From an uncultured Bacilli bacterium (GTDB lineage Bacteria; Bacillota_I; Bacilli_A; RF39; UBA660): a stretch of 32,792 bases of DNA. The stretch is taken from NCBI GenBank assembly GCA_944350415.1, contig CALVOY010000025.1, positions 1 through 32,792 on the forward strand, read 5' to 3'. Shown here in pieces: positions 11,106 through 18,755 of the stretch. A program made the translations under genes and the position numbers. Below the pieces are notes generated by a model. That model had not been told where the DNA came from. It did no database searches and saw only the letters and a list, made by a program, of their open reading frames with translations. Numbering within the stretch: position 1 is the stretch's first letter; every line of letters starts with the position of its first letter.

Positions 11106-11185
11106 ATTAATCACCTATTTAAGTATATGTTTTTTTCTTCTGATTATTGTTTTTTCATTTTTTCTTTTGAAAAAGTTACCAAAAA

Positions 11186-11205
11186 TCGACAATTTTCGAC
11201 AATTT
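11186..11205 (+). repeat. Tandem 10-bp repeat upstream of the response regulator gene
   Basis: TCGACAATTT occurs twice in exact tandem, one helical turn apart, between the CwlD-like and LytTR genes. LytTR proteins bind paired direct repeats, so autoregulation is possible, although their usual spacing is about two turns. Confidence 0.5.
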
Positions 11206-11267
11206 ACGAGAGTGAAAGATTACTTTTAGTTAAATGTGATAGAATGGATTGTGTGGTGGGGTGTTTT

Positions 11268-12005
11268 ATGATTAATGTTATTATTTATGAAGATAATAAA
11301 GAAATGCAAATATTATACCAAGAAGTTGTTCGAAACTTTTTTCATTCACAAAAAATCAAGATTAAATTTCATATTTTTTCTTCCTATGTTAGAAACTTAG
11401 AAAGAAAATTAGCTAGTCTTCCAGGTAAAAAACTATTTATTTTAGATATTGAAGTACCAGGAAAATCGGGACTTGATTTAGCAAGAACTATCCGAAACGA
11501 GGGAGATTGGATGAGTCCATTAATGGTGATTACTAGTTATGAAAATTTAAAAAATACAGGATTTACTAGTAAGGTACTAATGTTGGATTTTATTTCTAAA
11601 AGAGAGAATGTTAGAAAGCGATTAAAAGAATCTTTAGAAACGGTTTACGATATCTTCCATATGAAAGATGCTTACACTTTTCAATATAATGGAAAATTAT
11701 TTCATATTCCTTTTGATGATATCTTATATTTTGAAAAAGATTTGAATGATAATTATACTTTTTTGTATACAGAAGATTTTGCTTATAAAATCAAAGAAAG
11801 TATTACCCAGATTGGAAAAAAACTAGAACAGCATCTAATGTTTCTAAAAGTACATCGTAGTTGTATTGTAAACATTAATAGGATTTCGATGTTTAATGTA
11901 AAAGAAAAGCGTATTTATCTAGGGAAATATTCAACCAATCTAATCACCAGAGAAGGTAGAGATTTTCTAAAAAAGAAATTAAGACCTATGCATATTGTGA
12001 AATAG
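11268..12005 (+). CDS. LytTR-family response regulator, orphan
   Basis: The product has 245 residues. The receiver domain (1-120) has acidic E8-D9 (IIYEDN), phosphoacceptor D60 (LFILDIEVPGKSG), T89/S90 in MVITSYE and K111 in FISKR. A LytTR DNA-binding domain fills 140-245, including FEKDLNDNYTFLYT and LKVHRSCIVNINRI, the typical LytTR phrase. The ATG at 11268 follows GGTGGGGTG; the frame is open further upstream but without a ribosome site. No histidine kinase lies beside it, which is unusual since most LytTR regulators pair with a 10HPK kinase. Possible targets are cell wall, competence or peptide-signalling genes. Confidence 0.88.
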   Translation: MINVIIYEDNKEMQILYQEVVRNFFHSQKIKIKFHIFSSYVRNLERKLASLPGKKLFILDIEVPGKSGLDLARTIRNEGDWMSPLMVITSYENLKNTGFTSKVLMLDFISKRENVRKRLKESLETVYDIFHMKDAYTFQYNGKLFHIPFDDILYFEKDLNDNYTFLYTEDFAYKIKESITQIGKKLEQHLMFLKVHRSCIVNINRISMFNVKEKRIYLGKYSTNLITREGRDFLKKKLRPMHIVK

Positions 12006-13374: not shown

Positions 13375-14109
13375 TCATGAATACCAAACCTTTCTTAAGT
13401 AAAGACCTTCAGCTGGAGCAGTCTTAACTGATTTGGTTCTATCCTTTGCTTCTATTATTTGACTTACATCTTGAGCTTCTTTTTTACCACTACCAATATA
13501 GATTAAAAGACCTACCATATTTCTAACTTGGTACTTCATAAAACCATCGGCTTGAAAGCTAATTTCAATGATCCCATTTTTCTCTTTTATGTTTGTTTTT
13601 AATATAGTTCTAACTTTATTTTCTCGCGCATCTTCACTAGATACAAAAGAAGTAAAATCATGAGTTCCTTCAAAATACTGAATTGCCTCTTTCATTTTAT
13701 CTATATCTAAGGGTCTATTATACTGATAAATATAATTTCTTTCCATAGGATTATATTCACCAACATTAATCTTATATATATATTCCTTTTTCTTAGCTGA
13801 AAAACGGGCATGAAAATTTTCTGATACTTTGGTTACTTTGATAACATGAATATCTTCTGGGAGATTGGAATTTAATCCTCTTTTTATTTTTTCTAAAGTA
13901 GTATCAATATTTAAATCAAAATGAGCTACTTGATTTAAAGCATGGACCCCTTTATCTGTTCTGCCAGATGATTGAACGGAAGTATATGTCTGTTTATTTA
14001 AATAACTTACCGCTTTTTCCAATTCATTTTGAACGGTTCTTAAGTTTGGCTGCAACTGATACCCATTAAAATTGGTTCCATCATAGGAAAAATCAATTCG
14101 ATAGCGCAT
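13375..14109 (-). CDS. truA: tRNA pseudouridine synthase A
   Basis: The product has 244 residues, the standard size. It isomerises uridines 38-40 in the anticodon arm. SSGRTDKGVHALNQVAHFD contains the catalytic Asp in the RTDKGVHA motif, and FMKYQVRNMVGLLIYIGSG is the conserved C-terminal signature. GGGAGG lies before the ATG at 14109; an upstream in-frame ATG at 14187 lies inside the ecfT gene and is not used. It follows ecfT by two bases, so it belongs to the ECF operon as in many Bacillota. Confidence 0.96.
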   Translation of the reverse strand: MRYRIDFSYDGTNFNGYQLQPNLRTVQNELEKAVSYLNKQTYTSVQSSGRTDKGVHALNQVAHFDLNIDTTLEKIKRGLNSNLPEDIHVIKVTKVSENFHARFSAKKKEYIYKINVGEYNPMERNYIYQYNRPLDIDKMKEAIQYFEGTHDFTSFVSSEDARENKVRTILKTNIKEKNGIIEISFQADGFMKYQVRNMVGLLIYIGSGKKEAQDVSQIIEAKDRTKSVKTAPAEGLYLRKVWYS

Positions 14110-14111
14110 TT

Positions 14112-14759
14112 TTACCTCCCATAAAAACAAGTTAGTAAGGCGAAGATAATATGGATTAACAAATAATTTGTATCCCAAGTTTCCCAAGTTGGTTTTTCCA
14201 TATATGTTCTTTTTTTGGAATCATTATAGAATCGCAACTTGTTTATTTGCATAAAATCTTTCATCTGTTCTTTGGTTTTGTAATAAGCTTTTTTGATAAT
14301 AAAGCTAACAAAATGAATACTATAATTTAATCCATAATCATCTTTTAAGATCATTAATCTTTTTAAATTCTTTTTAAAATATTTTCCAAAATAAATTGAG
14401 CAAAGAATTTTATAGGTAATCTGCTTTTGTTGAAAACGATAGAGTGTACTCTCTAGTATATATCTTAATTCTATAGAGCGTGTTACCTTTTTCAACAGAG
14501 CTGTGTATATGATTAATATTCCTAATTTACTTATCCACAAAATTTGTGGATAAACGATTGTTAGCAGAGCAATTGCTGTTATAAAAATATTTATTTTAAA
14601 CAAATTAGGATATTGCTTCGTGATTAACAGCAAAAATAAATTTACAAATATTATAAAAATGGAATCTTTGCATACTAATAATGAGAATAAAACAATAGCA
14701 TAGCAAATTACCTTATTCATAATATTAACTTCTTTAATAATAGAATCTGTATTAAACAT
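14112..14759 (-). CDS. ecfT: Divergent EcfT-like transmembrane coupling subunit
   Basis: The product has 215 residues: several hydrophobic segments at 18-75 and 85-100, a charged helical middle, and a final hydrophobic segment (LLIHIIFALLTCFY). EcfT links the two ATPases to a vitamin-binding S component. Its identity rests on position (ATPase-ATPase-EcfT-truA) and on the LRFYNDSKKRT segment near the end, which resembles the CbiQ/EcfT coupling motif. The two Ala-Arg-Gly coupling motifs of standard EcfT are not evident. I chose the ATG at 14759 (AAAGGA upstream, overlapping the ATPase stop as ATGTTTAA); an ATG at 14771 and one near 14720 are alternatives. Confidence 0.65.
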   Translation of the reverse strand: MFNTDSIIKEVNIMNKVICYAIVLFSLLVCKDSIFIIFVNLFLLLITKQYPNLFKINIFITAIALLTIVYPQILWISKLGILIIYTALLKKVTRSIELRYILESTLYRFQQKQITYKILCSIYFGKYFKKNLKRLMILKDDYGLNYSIHFVSFIIKKAYYKTKEQMKDFMQINKLRFYNDSKKRTYMEKPTWETWDTNYLLIHIIFALLTCFYGR

Positions 14760-15561
14760 GTTTATACACATCCTTTATTAAATCTCTAATATCACGATGA
14801 AAAGAAAGTTTGATCTTTTTTTCTTTTGCTAACATAGTAAATTTAATTAGATCAGGGATATCGACATCATTTTCTTTTAAAAGAGAAATATTTTGATATA
14901 CTTTTACTGTACTATCTGTTGCTAAAATACGCCCTTTTTTTAAAATTACGATATCATCTGTTATCTCATACAAAAGATTACAATTATTACTAGTAATAAT
15001 AATAGTTTTTTGATACTTTTCTTTTAACACTTTGATTAGTTTTAATAACTTTCTTTGATTTTTATAATCTAATTCTACAAATGGTTCATCAAAGATAATA
15101 ATATTAGGATTATAGATTAAACTAATAGCTACTTGTAATAGTTTTTGTTCGCCACTAGATAGTACTTTGATTTCTTTATTTAAATATGTTTTATTTAATC
15201 CTACCATTTCTAAAGATTGCTCCATCTTTTTATTTAAATCTTTTGGTTGATAGGCTAAACGCGATACTAGAAATATGATTTCTTCTTTTACATTATCTGT
15301 AAAAAATTGATTCTGCCAGTTTTGATGAATTAAGCAAACTTCTTTGCGAATCCATTTTAGATTTTCTTTATTTAAAAGAGCATCTCCAACTGTAACAGTA
15401 CCCGTATAATCTAATTTTACGGCATCTATAATTTCGCATAATAATGTTTTATATTCACCAGTAATACCAGTGATATGATTATCTGCTATTTTTAAATTGA
15501 TATGATCTAGAATTTTTTTATTTTTATAACGGTATCCTACATTTTTTAATGTTATTTCCAT
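14752..15561 (-). CDS. ECF-type ABC ATPase, second subunit, altered Walker A
   Basis: The product has 269 residues. It has the ABC fold: Q-loop Q80 (LIHQNWQNQ), signature LSSGEQ (134-139), and Walker B IIIFDEP with D158 and catalytic E159. The Walker A is G32-ITGEYKT: K38 and T39 are kept, but the Gly before Lys is Tyr37, and the usual SGKST core is gone. The switch His is Ser191 (ITSNN instead of ITHD). ATP binding or hydrolysis is probably impaired. By position it corresponds to EcfA2. It overlaps the upstream ATPase gene by ten bases and ecfT by eight. Confidence 0.82.
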   Translation of the reverse strand: MEITLKNVGYRYKNKKILDHINLKIADNHITGITGEYKTLLCEIIDAVKLDYTGTVTVGDALLNKENLKWIRKEVCLIHQNWQNQFFTDNVKEEIIFLVSRLAYQPKDLNKKMEQSLEMVGLNKTYLNKEIKVLSSGEQKLLQVAISLIYNPNIIIFDEPFVELDYKNQRKLLKLIKVLKEKYQKTIIITSNNCNLLYEITDDIVILKKGRILATDSTVKVYQNISLLKENDVDIPDLIKFTMLAKEKKIKLSFHRDIRDLIKDVYKHV

Positions 15562-16361
15562 AATGTATTCACCATCCTATCCATATCCATTTCCATTCCT
15601 TTTGTAAGTTCATAAAATTCTAATTTTAATGATAAGTCAGCCATAAAAGGGAGAGACAATCCTAAGCGATTTAATAAAGTATCTTCTTTTAATACTGTTA
15701 ATGGCTCTCCTTCTATCACAATATTTCCTTCATTTAAGATAAATAAATAATCCGTATCTAAAGTATCTTCTAAATTGGTTGTAGTTAAAATGATTGTTAA
15801 ATTATATTTCTTTTGATACTCCTTTAGTGCCTTTTTTACCTTTTGTTTTATTTTAGAAGTCATCATCGAAAAAGCATTGTCTAATAAAAGAACCCTTGGT
15901 TGATGTAAAAGAGAAATTGCTAATAACACTTCTTGTTTTTCAGAATTTGTCAAATCTTCCGTTCTTTTATCTAACAATTTGGATATACTAAATAACTTCG
16001 CAATTTCTAGTATCTTTTTTTCTATTTCTGCAGTTTCTTTATTTAAATTTTCTAATGGAAATGCCATCTCTTTGTACACATTTTCAAATAAAAAGGCATT
16101 TAAATTGTTTCCCAATACTACTCCTAATTCTTTAGAGTGATCTTGAATGCGATTATTATCCACATAAGAATAACCTATTGTGATAGTATTTTGACTAGGA
16201 ATAATTCCTGCTATTAATTTTATTAATGTGGTTTTGCCACTAGTATTGTTTCCAGCAATACTAATATAGCTTCCTTCTTTTACCGAAAGATTAAAGTCTT
16301 TGAAAATGGTAGTTTTGCCATATTGATAATTTAAATTTTTGATTTCTAAAATATTTGCCAT
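15552..16361 (-). CDS. ECF-type ABC ATPase, first subunit, lacking catalytic Glu
   Basis: The product has 269 residues. The Walker A GNNTSGKTT (37-45) is intact. Other ATPase motifs have decayed: the Q-loop Gln is apparently Gly84 (VVLGNNLNAF), the signature is LTNSE (137-141) instead of LSGGQ, Walker B is LLLDN with Asn162 in place of the catalytic Glu, and the switch His is Thr (LTTTNLED). It should bind ATP but not hydrolyse it at its own site. By position it corresponds to EcfA1. GAGGTGG precedes the ATG and a strong promoter lies just upstream. The C-terminal extension beyond 210 is typical of EcfA proteins. Confidence 0.82.
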   Translation of the reverse strand: MANILEIKNLNYQYGKTTIFKDFNLSVKEGSYISIAGNNTSGKTTLIKLIAGIIPSQNTITIGYSYVDNNRIQDHSKELGVVLGNNLNAFLFENVYKEMAFPLENLNKETAEIEKKILEIAKLFSISKLLDKRTEDLTNSEKQEVLLAISLLHQPRVLLLDNAFSMMTSKIKQKVKKALKEYQKKYNLTIILTTTNLEDTLDTDYLFILNEGNIVIEGEPLTVLKEDTLLNRLGLSLPFMADLSLKLEFYELTKGMEMDMDRMVNTLWK

Positions 16362-16415: not shown

Positions 16416-16445
16416 GAAAAAAATACTATTTCTAGTACTTTTTTA
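16416..16445 (-). terminator. Terminator of the SDR gene
   Basis: On the minus strand AAAAAGTACTA and TAGTATTTTTTT pair around GAAA, with one G-U pair, and end in a T-run. It begins at the SDR stop codon. Confidence 0.7.
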
Positions 16446-17195
16446 TTTCAATTTTTTCTTTTGAATTCGATATGTAATTTTCATTAATGCTTTATCTGAT
16501 ATAAATCTTCCAAAGAATTTGGCACATTTTATTTTAAACCCCGGGATAATCAATAATTTTCCTTCTAACATTTTATCGATTGCATATTTCGCTACATCAT
16601 CTGCTTTTAAAGGTTTTACAGAGAATTTAACTTCTGCTACATTATTGAAGTTAGTGTATACAGGTCCTGGACATAAACAGGATACTTGGACATTTACTTT
16701 TTCTTTTTTTAATTCATAGTTAATTGCTTCTGTTAATCTATAAACATAAGATTTGGTACTGTAGTAGGTTGACATTAATGGTCCTGATTGAAATGCTGCA
16801 GATGATGCTACATTTAAGATATATCCTTTATTTTTTCTTTTCATATCTTTTAAGAAAAGTTTCGTTAAAATATGAACTGCTTTGATATTAATATCAATCA
16901 TATTTAATTCTTTTGATAGATCTGTTTCTGTAAAATTACCACATAATCCAAATCCTGCATTATTAACTAAAATATCAATATCATCATTTTTTACTAATAC
17001 ATATAATGATTTTATATCTTCTACTTGCGATAAATCCATTACAATAATTTTTGGCTTATGTTTTAATGTTTTAGCTACTGCTTCTAGTTTTTCTTTGTTT
17101 CTTGCCACTAAAACTACTTCGTATCCTAATGTATCTAAATATTTAGCTATTTCTAAGCCAATGCCAGAAGAAGCACCTGTTACTAAAGCTTTCAT
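16443..17195 (-). CDS. Short-chain dehydrogenase/reductase
   Basis: The product has 250 residues. It has the classical SDR motifs: TGASSGIG (6-13) for the dinucleotide, NNAG (78-81), Ser131 in NVASSAAF, and Y144-xxx-K148. Arg32 after the second strand (VLVARNKEKL) suggests NADP(H) preference. The C-terminal tail is basic (RIQKKKLK). It resembles DltE/YqjQ-type proteins that reduce unknown carbonyl substrates. Its place between the two nucleotidyltransferase-like genes and the ECF module is not part of the usual Bacillota order. GGGTGGTAAT precedes the ATG. Confidence 0.88.
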   Translation of the reverse strand: MKALVTGASSGIGLEIAKYLDTLGYEVVLVARNKEKLEAVAKTLKHKPKIIVMDLSQVEDIKSLYVLVKNDDIDILVNNAGFGLCGNFTETDLSKELNMIDINIKAVHILTKLFLKDMKRKNKGYILNVASSAAFQSGPLMSTYYSTKSYVYRLTEAINYELKKEKVNVQVSCLCPGPVYTNFNNVAEVKFSVKPLKADDVAKYAIDKMLEGKLLIIPGFKIKCAKFFGRFISDKALMKITYRIQKKKLK

Positions 17196-17386: not shown

Positions 17387-17845
17387 TTATGAGTCCCTTT
17401 TTCTCGAATAAACTTTCCTTTTCGTAATTTTGACTACTTCATTAGGCAATTCAAAGCTATTATAAAATTTAGGAATCTTTTCATTTTGTTGTAATAATGT
17501 TATTTTTTTATTTAAGAATTTCTTAGGATCATAGATCACAGCACTACTTTTTAATTCACGGGCTATTTTTTCTTTCTTTTCACTGTTTATAGATCCTCTA
17601 TATTCATCTATTGGTTTGATACTAACCTGTATTTTCAATTCATTTACTAAGATTTGATTTTTAATCACTGGTATTTCTTTTCGAGTATTATGTAATATTA
17701 CGACTTCTATTCTTTGAAGACCTCCAATTTGATAAGGGCATAAATAAACTCCTAAAATTTTGTTACCGTATTTTTCAATATAGGGAATGGTTAATCTTGA
17801 GATAGAATCCGACACAATCTCTTTTACTGGTTTTTTCTTTCTCAT
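17387..17845 (-). CDS. Small nucleotidyltransferase-like paralogue, probably catalytically inactive
   Basis: The product has 152 residues. The segment KILGVYLCPYQIGGLQRIEVVIL looks like the first strands of a nucleotidyltransferase fold, and ARELKSSAVIYDPKKFL resembles the late strand-helix of small nucleotidyltransferases. The glycine-serine motif is missing and the metal-binding Asp-x-Asp is replaced by E47-V-V. It aligns by eye with the upstream gene (GIYIQSYQ, IEVELI, AQELKNSEILYDKEGKL), so the two are probably paralogues. The ribosome site AGGTGAT overlaps the upstream stop, so they are co-translated. The function is unknown. Confidence 0.6.
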   Translation of the reverse strand: MRKKKPVKEIVSDSISRLTIPYIEKYGNKILGVYLCPYQIGGLQRIEVVILHNTRKEIPVIKNQILVNELKIQVSIKPIDEYRGSINSEKKEKIARELKSSAVIYDPKKFLNKKITLLQQNEKIPKFYNSFELPNEVVKITKRKVYSRKRDS

Positions 17846-17849
17846 ATTA

Positions 17850-18755
17850 TCACCTTAAAATTCTTTTACATGGAAAATTATCATCTAATTTTTCTGTTGC
17901 TTTTAATTCTCTATAAATTCTTAATTCTGTTTCATTTAAATGATTACTAATATCTATACTTGCTATTTGGCTTTCTAATAAAGCTAAACATTGTTTATAA
18001 AATTCTTTTCTTTCCATAGTAGAAAATACTGGTTGCATCTTTTTGCTGGTCTCAAGTTCATCTATAGCATAATAAGCATCATATTTATACCAATTATTTT
18101 GTAGGTTTTTCTGACTATTTTGAAAATTTTCTAAATTACCTTTATTGCAAACAACATAATCTAATGGATGAAATTCATCACTACTCTCATAGCAATATCG
18201 ACCCAATATTTCTTTAATTTGAGCAATGGTTCCATAAGCAGTCATTGCGAGCGGATTAACATAGTGAGTTGCCATTGTATTGGGAATAGAAACTGTCTCT
18301 TTCTTTATAATTCCCGTTTTTATTCTCTTCATTAATTTAGGAGATATTTCGATTCGATTTGCATATAAAGGGAGACTATTATCTTTATCATATATCTTCT
18401 TGTATTCTTTAAGCTTTCCTTCTTTATCATATAAAATTTCAGAATTTTTTAATTCTTGAGCTAAAATAACTTCTCTTGCATGCATATAAACATGTGAGAA
18501 ATCTGAATCATTTCTTATTCTATTGGTTACACGCATGTTTCTAACCTTAATGTATATAGGATCCCCATAATCTTCTTCCCAATTTGGTATTACTTTATCA
18601 ACTACTGTTATCAATTCCACTTCTATATTATTACTTTTTTTATTTTGATAACTTTGAATATATATTCCTATTACATTACTATGCTTGATTTGTATTTGTG
18701 ACATACCTATAATCGTTCTTGCAAATTCATTATCTTTATCATTATTTATCATCAT
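17850..18755 (-). CDS. Larger nucleotidyltransferase-like paralogue with helical C-terminal domain
   Basis: The product has 301 residues. Residues 20-120 resemble a decayed nucleotidyltransferase: NVIGIYIQSYQ where the GS motif should be, E45-V-E47 in place of Asp-x-Asp, then AQELKNSEILYDKEGKL. Residues 160-301 form a second, helix-rich domain (TMATHYVNPLAMTAYGTIAQ...), which is absent from the shorter neighbour. No signal peptide is present. AGGAGGGATTT precedes the ATG. The pair sits immediately after the alpha operon behind its own promoter. I cannot name a family with confidence; regulator, toxin-antitoxin remnant or nucleic-acid binder are all possible. Confidence 0.6.
   Translation of the reverse strand: MMINNDKDNEFARTIIGMSQIQIKHSNVIGIYIQSYQNKKSNNIEVELITVVDKVIPNWEEDYGDPIYIKVRNMRVTNRIRNDSDFSHVYMHAREVILAQELKNSEILYDKEGKLKEYKKIYDKDNSLPLYANRIEISPKLMKRIKTGIIKKETVSIPNTMATHYVNPLAMTAYGTIAQIKEILGRYCYESSDEFHPLDYVVCNKGNLENFQNSQKNLQNNWYKYDAYYAIDELETSKKMQPVFSTMERKEFYKQCLALLESQIASIDISNHLNETELRIYRELKATEKLDDNFPCKRILR

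Follow-up and report, generated by a model that had tools for sequence, protein, structure and literature searches.

A non-hydrolytic composite site is known from the asymmetric ABC proteins CFTR, TM287/288 and MRP1, all of which, unlike the pair described here, retain one consensus site. Closest to the present locus are the group II EcfA-EcfA'-EcfT modules, represented by ECF-FolT2 and the solitary module of L. delbrueckii (8bms) and by the EcfAA' pair (4hlu). In the L. delbrueckii ECF module, a Glu to Gln change in either ATPase alone abolishes above-background ATPase activity and transport, and the double mutant of the solitary module, 2EQ, is locked in a closed state that holds Mg-ATP (PMC10368641). 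Related ATPases form part of the EetB-FmnA-EcfA-EcfA' FAD exporter of Listeria, of which EetB (PF07456) is the substrate subunit (PMC9973259). The dual ABC dimer PhnK/PhnL of C-P lyase (7z15/7z16) offers a likeness as an ABC pair without membrane domains and with a soluble partner; it differs in being catalytic and in serving an enzyme complex of its own, and was matched here only as a general ABC fold. In Mycoplasma, a contact between GatC and the ECF module has been reported, and moonlighting has thus been proposed elsewhere (PMC13047044). The locus analysed here shares with group II modules the order ecfA1-ecfA2-ecfT-truA, the folds of EcfA2 and EcfT and the C-terminal domains, but differs in that EcfA1 lacks the catalytic Glu and His, the EcfA2 P-loop is broken, no S-component was found and EcfT is shortened or absent. 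No earlier report of such a pair was found in the open-access literature.

The window, that is, the whole stretch of DNA analysed (32,792 nt), is one contig of a 1.18 Mb genome that is 92% complete, and the sequence-based analysis was carried out on metagenome-assembled genomes (MAGs), which are incomplete. The genus appears to be Scybalousia and the family seems to fall among the RF39-type reduced gut Bacilli, RF39 being characterised by reduced genomes and auxotrophies (PMC12306168). On the minus strand, rplQ/rpoA are followed by an SDR oxidoreductase gene (16443..17195), the usual upstream neighbour across the family, and then by ecfA1 (15552..16361), ecfA2 (14752..15561), an ecfT-like gene (14112..14771), truA (13375..14115), rplM and rpsI. 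Both ATPase genes encode 269 aa and are unbroken, in agreement with a sequence-only reading of this DNA which had described them as intact; its statement that they are promoted found no support, as promoter-like matches were at chance level (43 found, 40.1 expected), and a candidate operon promoter was rejected. The reading frames of ecfA1 and ecfA2 overlap by 10 nt (15552..15561), an arrangement kept in 57/65 loci and compatible with coupled production of a heterodimer, and ecfT overlaps ecfA2 by 20 nt. The fixed downstream neighbour truA lies directly after ecfA2 in relatives devoid of EcfT, but since it also stands beside ecf genes in other Bacilli families its adjacency is no evidence of interaction. 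Elsewhere in the window, two family-less and possibly mutually related proteins (152 and 301 aa) are encoded at 17387-18755 between rplQ and the SDR gene, an interval which ranges from 17 to 5,831 nt among relatives and thus looks like an insertion hot spot, and a LytTR-like response regulator (11127-12005, opposite strand) adjoins rpsI.

Profile searches gave TIGR04520 as the best NCBIfam model for EcfA1 (1e-50), with a score of 172.7 bits that is far below the curated equivalog cut-off of 315, and TIGR04521 for EcfA2 (2.2e-46), again far below its cut-off (158.2 against 330 bits). AlphaFold models were built from 13-14 sequences; that of EcfA2 (AF2, pLDDT 85.6) had ECF ATPases as its best structural matches, with a Z of 29.5 to 8bms_B. 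By these models, the structural matches of EcfA2 and the synteny with truA, EcfA1 and EcfA2 are ECF ATPases by descent.

Alignment located the lesions of EcfA1, where the sequence-only reading had correctly described an intact Walker A and changes at the three other catalytic motifs. Walker A is GNNTSGKTT (16227..16253), the canonical LSGGQ signature is lost and reads LTNSEKQ (15933..15953), Walker B is LLLDN (15876..15890) with the catalytic Glu162 replaced by Asn, and the switch His is replaced by Thr195 (15777..15779). The same positions were altered in all 15 genus members in which the locus is assembled, D-E being replaced by D-N or D-H, LSGGQ by an LT[NTI]S/L/A-type sequence, and the switch His by Thr, Met or Ile. 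A Q-loop change had also been listed as a lesion and is indeed present, but it is not specific, being found family-wide, including in members that keep the Glu, which have Glu, Asp, Asn or Ser at that position.

In EcfA2, the P-loop (GITGEYKTLL, 15439..15468) has lost three residues and Asn192 (14986..14988) stands in for the switch His, both in 15/15 genus members, while the signature LSSGEQK (15142..15162) is retained and Walker B Asp158-Glu159 (15085..15090) is retained in the window copy. What had been read as Tyr37 in place of a Walker A Gly is really a three-residue deletion (GKSGSGKTT to GEY-KT) common to the whole degenerate clade; Ser191, previously given as the replacement for the switch His, aligns with the Thr of T-H-D. 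The Q-loop and LSxGE were retained, as had been noted.

Residue counts were made over 48 degenerate pairs from the wider family. In EcfA1, Lys43 of Walker A and Asp161 of Walker B were present in 48/48 and the catalytic Glu and switch His in none, and in EcfA2 signature position 135 was Ser or Thr in 48/48 and Glu138 was kept in 47. The composite site formed by EcfA1 Walker A/B and the EcfA2 signature has thus kept its binding residues and lost its catalytic ones, the sequence pattern expected of a nucleotide-binding pseudo-ATPase, whereas the other composite site has lost both its P-loop (EcfA2) and its signature (EcfA1). Neither site is complete, as had been proposed from the sequence, and the one full consensus site of asymmetric ABC dimers is absent. 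A functional ECF module has the catalytic Glu and switch His, as well as an intact P-loop, in both ATPases; genus-wide, EcfA1 lacked both residues, EcfA2 lacked the His, and the EcfA2 P-loop was shortened. From these residues, one nucleotide site should bind but not hydrolyse its nucleotide, although the Asp, Asn or His beside the Walker B Asp of EcfA1 may permit very slow hydrolysis. Full ATPase activity could alternatively be restored if the partner supplied residues in trans or if another group acted as the catalytic base, and EcfA2 does have DE and a good signature; yet it is without a P-loop of its own and, in the established geometry of ABC dimers, its DE takes no part in the EcfA1 site, so that we regard such restoration as extremely improbable. 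The intact L. delbrueckii module has a Vmax of about 130 per min; judged by the mutants of that module, the present one should be inactive as a motor. The expected binding without hydrolysis, and a likely closed, ATP-bound state, would liken it to 2EQ, but 2EQ is a laboratory mutant with two intact binding sites, while the present pair is natural and has one site left.

The sequence-only reading had foreseen that the substitutions would be conserved across the lineage and that the genes were probably under selection, with canonical relatives as the outcome that would speak against it. The same lesions occurred in 15/15 genus genomes whose locus is assembled, and canonical residues were found solely in other genera. 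Sequencing or assembly error was ruled out, because 15 independent genomes carry the same kind of change at the same positions. Nei-Gojobori dN/dS within the genus, where dS is near saturation in some pairs, was 0.024-0.112 for EcfA1, 0.006-0.117 for EcfA2, 0.04-0.33 for EcfT and 0.067-0.117 for truA, and in EcfT-less relatives it was 0.13-0.36 and 0.09-0.21. The low ATPase values, indicative of purifying selection, together with a lack of stop codons in any genus copy ruled out a pseudogene. They also bear on whether these genes are relics, decaying after loss of an S-component and still awaiting deletion, a view that draws on genome reduction and on the graded loss of motifs, EcfT and lastly the ATPase core over the family. 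Besides the absence of stops and the dN/dS of 0.006-0.12, the degenerate pair is present across many genera, among which ATPase identity falls to about 33%, and the P-loop Lys of EcfA1 is invariant in the 48 pairs; decay is thus quite improbable.

In trees made with FastTree, in which support was moderate and deep nodes were weak, the P-loop-less pairs of the whole family came out as one clade (support 0.91 in the A1+A2 tree), and they grouped as one clade in both marker and ATPase trees. G021 has the look of an intermediate. The L097 locus (L097:5986-7517) lies inside the canonical clade and has an EcfA1 with D-N, a shortened EcfA2 P-loop (VVGKGGKSLL) and no EcfT before truA, which may possibly represent independent degeneration. 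G015 and G008, in which the locus seemed to be lost, were uninformative, since truA is missing as well and the ecf locus probably fell in an assembly gap.

The genes that would make the ATPases a transporter were then considered. No S-component above cut-off was found in the genus for PF12822, PF02632, PF07155, PF09515, PF06177 or PF07456, in incomplete MAGs; these six families, which include BioY, ECF-ribofla_trS, ThiT and QueT, would let a very divergent member outside them escape. BioY and ECF-ribofla_trS were searched in 20/35 family genomes. Weak PF12822 matches in G011, G013, G015, G024, G030 and G033 (E above 9e-4) were partial and below cut-off, and were rejected. Among other Bacilli families searched, nearly every genome had at least one S-component. 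The sole S-component found in the family was PF07456, in five genomes (G017, G019, G026, G031 and G032), each of which also has a PF02361 EcfT and an EcfA1 that keeps its Glu; it was present in 5/7 genomes with that Glu and in 0/24 without it (Fisher p 1.2e-4, not corrected for kinship). In G017 (L173:222-1226) this EetB-type S-component adjoins an FMN_bind lipoprotein-like gene. The ancestral job was thus probably flavin export, the ECF-competent family members probably carry out extracytosolic flavinylation, and loss of flavin export probably went with loss of catalysis. The Listeria FAD exporter therefore indicates what the intact ECF set of related genera probably does, but EetB was present in none of the degenerate genomes searched. 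A transporter-like set with partly degenerate ATPases was seen in G019 (L162:7122-8758), which keeps EetB and a PF02361 EcfT together with an EcfA1 devoid of LSGGQ and His and an EcfA2 with Glu to Asp and His to Arg changes.

The EcfT of the genus (219 aa in the window) had no match in Pfam or NCBIfam profile searches. Its AF2 model (pLDDT 76.9) nevertheless had an EcfT-like fold without a PF02361 match, the best PDB match being EcfT 8bms_C (Foldseek probability 1.00, E 4e-3), followed by CbiQ 5x3x. Just remnants of the two X-Arg-X coupling motifs are left: the first coupling-helix motif is changed, and R180-F-Y, invariant in 14/14, is the sole resemblance and, by its sequence, may be a remnant of the second. 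The protein is about 250 aa long in family members with intact ATPases, 215-219 aa in Scybalousia and 194 aa in G024, and at least 25 relatives have no EcfT between ecfA2 and truA, which there lie -8 to 18 nt apart, representing about 3-4 independent losses, an approximate count given the weak deep nodes. PF02361 was found nowhere across the genus, and canonical EcfT in none of the degenerate genomes searched. The possibility, raised earlier, of a second complete ECF set elsewhere was rejected, with no other EcfT found in the genome or genus.

These data bear on whether the locus still encodes a transporter, in the form of a slow or binding-driven ECF complex, either a facilitator or an EetB-type FAD exporter, whose S-component was missed in Scybalousia. 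In keeping with this, EcfT persists in the genus and is predicted to fold like an EcfT, its invariant R180-F-Y may be a remnant of the second coupling motif, and all three proteins are under selection. Against it, none of the six S-component families was found in the genus, a single Glu substitution is enough to stop transport by the L. delbrueckii module, EcfT has an altered first coupling-helix motif, and relatives retain the pair though no EcfT was found in them; on balance a surviving transporter is unlikely. The suggestion of a 'slow, non-hydrolytic or regulatory ECF complex' in the sequence-only reading is supported by the lineage-wide lesions and purifying selection, and the P-loop deletion, degenerate EcfT, missing S-components, EcfT-less relatives and a C-terminal shift in conservation make a regulatory or structural heterodimer likelier than a slow ECF transporter.

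This C-terminal shift was seen on comparing identities. The C-terminal domain of EcfA1 (aa 216-269, 15555..15716, LPFMxDLSLKLxFY...MVxxLWK) is the most conserved region in EcfT-less relatives, where its identity is 50% against 22-32% for the rest, whereas in other Bacilli families the ATPase core has 49-64% and the C-terminal domain 29%. Likewise, the C-terminal domain of EcfA2 (14755..14925), which ends in the near-invariant tail RDLIKDVYKHV, has 36% identity (tail 69%) in EcfT-less genomes against 23-38% for the core, and 24% (tail 17%) in other families against 49-67%. Conservation has thus shifted from the ATPase core to the C-terminal domains. As family members with intact ATPases already conserve these domains (48-49%), a second role may predate the loss of transport. 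Within Scybalousia, the C-terminal domain is under no more constraint than the core, and no less (omega 0.06-0.08), and function there is therefore not confined to the C-terminal face. In G023, a locus that first looked empty was found to contain, between whiA and truA (L183:4348-5342), two overlapping small ORFs, remnants of 149 and 183 aa without the P-loop core that end in the C-terminal domains and have no Pfam match; a shortened pair is kept in G027.

It could be envisaged that the 3' ends are kept merely for translation of the next gene. The overlap in 57/65 loci, the ecfA2-truA gaps of 4-18 nt and the position of the last residues of EcfA1 (LWK) and EcfA2 in or near the junctions all lend themselves to this. 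However, C-terminal synonymous sites are free to vary at a rate as high as elsewhere (dS 0.57-0.96, dN/dS 0.08-0.13), which places the constraint on the protein and not merely on the overlap or a ribosome-binding site, and conservation reaches about 40 codons upstream of the junction, leaving this explanation very improbable.

We therefore favour, as the probable explanation, that the locus encodes a former group II ECF energising module which has lost transport and survives as a heterodimer that does not hydrolyse ATP and acts through its C-terminal face. The C-terminal platform of the ECF motor would have had, or gained, a second role; with loss of the flavin S-component, hydrolysis and later EcfT would have become dispensable, while the nucleotide-held heterodimer stayed. 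The pair would hold a single Mg-ATP where Walker A/B of EcfA1 faces the signature of EcfA2, and would not cycle but remain in a stable nucleotide-occupied state; through its C-terminal face it would serve a putative partner as a scaffold or as a regulator that depends on nucleotide. In Scybalousia, the degenerate EcfT may still tether the dimer to the membrane. More tentatively, such pairs may constitute a new class of ABC pseudo-ATPases, namely heterodimers that are soluble or tethered to the membrane and descend from the motor of a vitamin or flavin transporter, with a conserved non-transport C-terminal platform and with ATP as a structural cofactor instead of a fuel.

The locus offers a stepwise example of a transporter motor that loses its fuel use, its substrate partner and its membrane subunit and yet persists, and a natural counterpart to the hydrolysis-dead ECF mutants used for trapping the closed state. 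It points to an unrecognised role of ECF ATPase C-terminal domains, which may coexist with transport in ordinary ECF modules. Such genes risk being labelled vitamin transporters by annotation pipelines, which could mislead auxotrophy models of these uncultured gut bacteria. If the assignment to a new class is true, the C-terminal platform would have an important job other than transport throughout a family of gut Bacilli.
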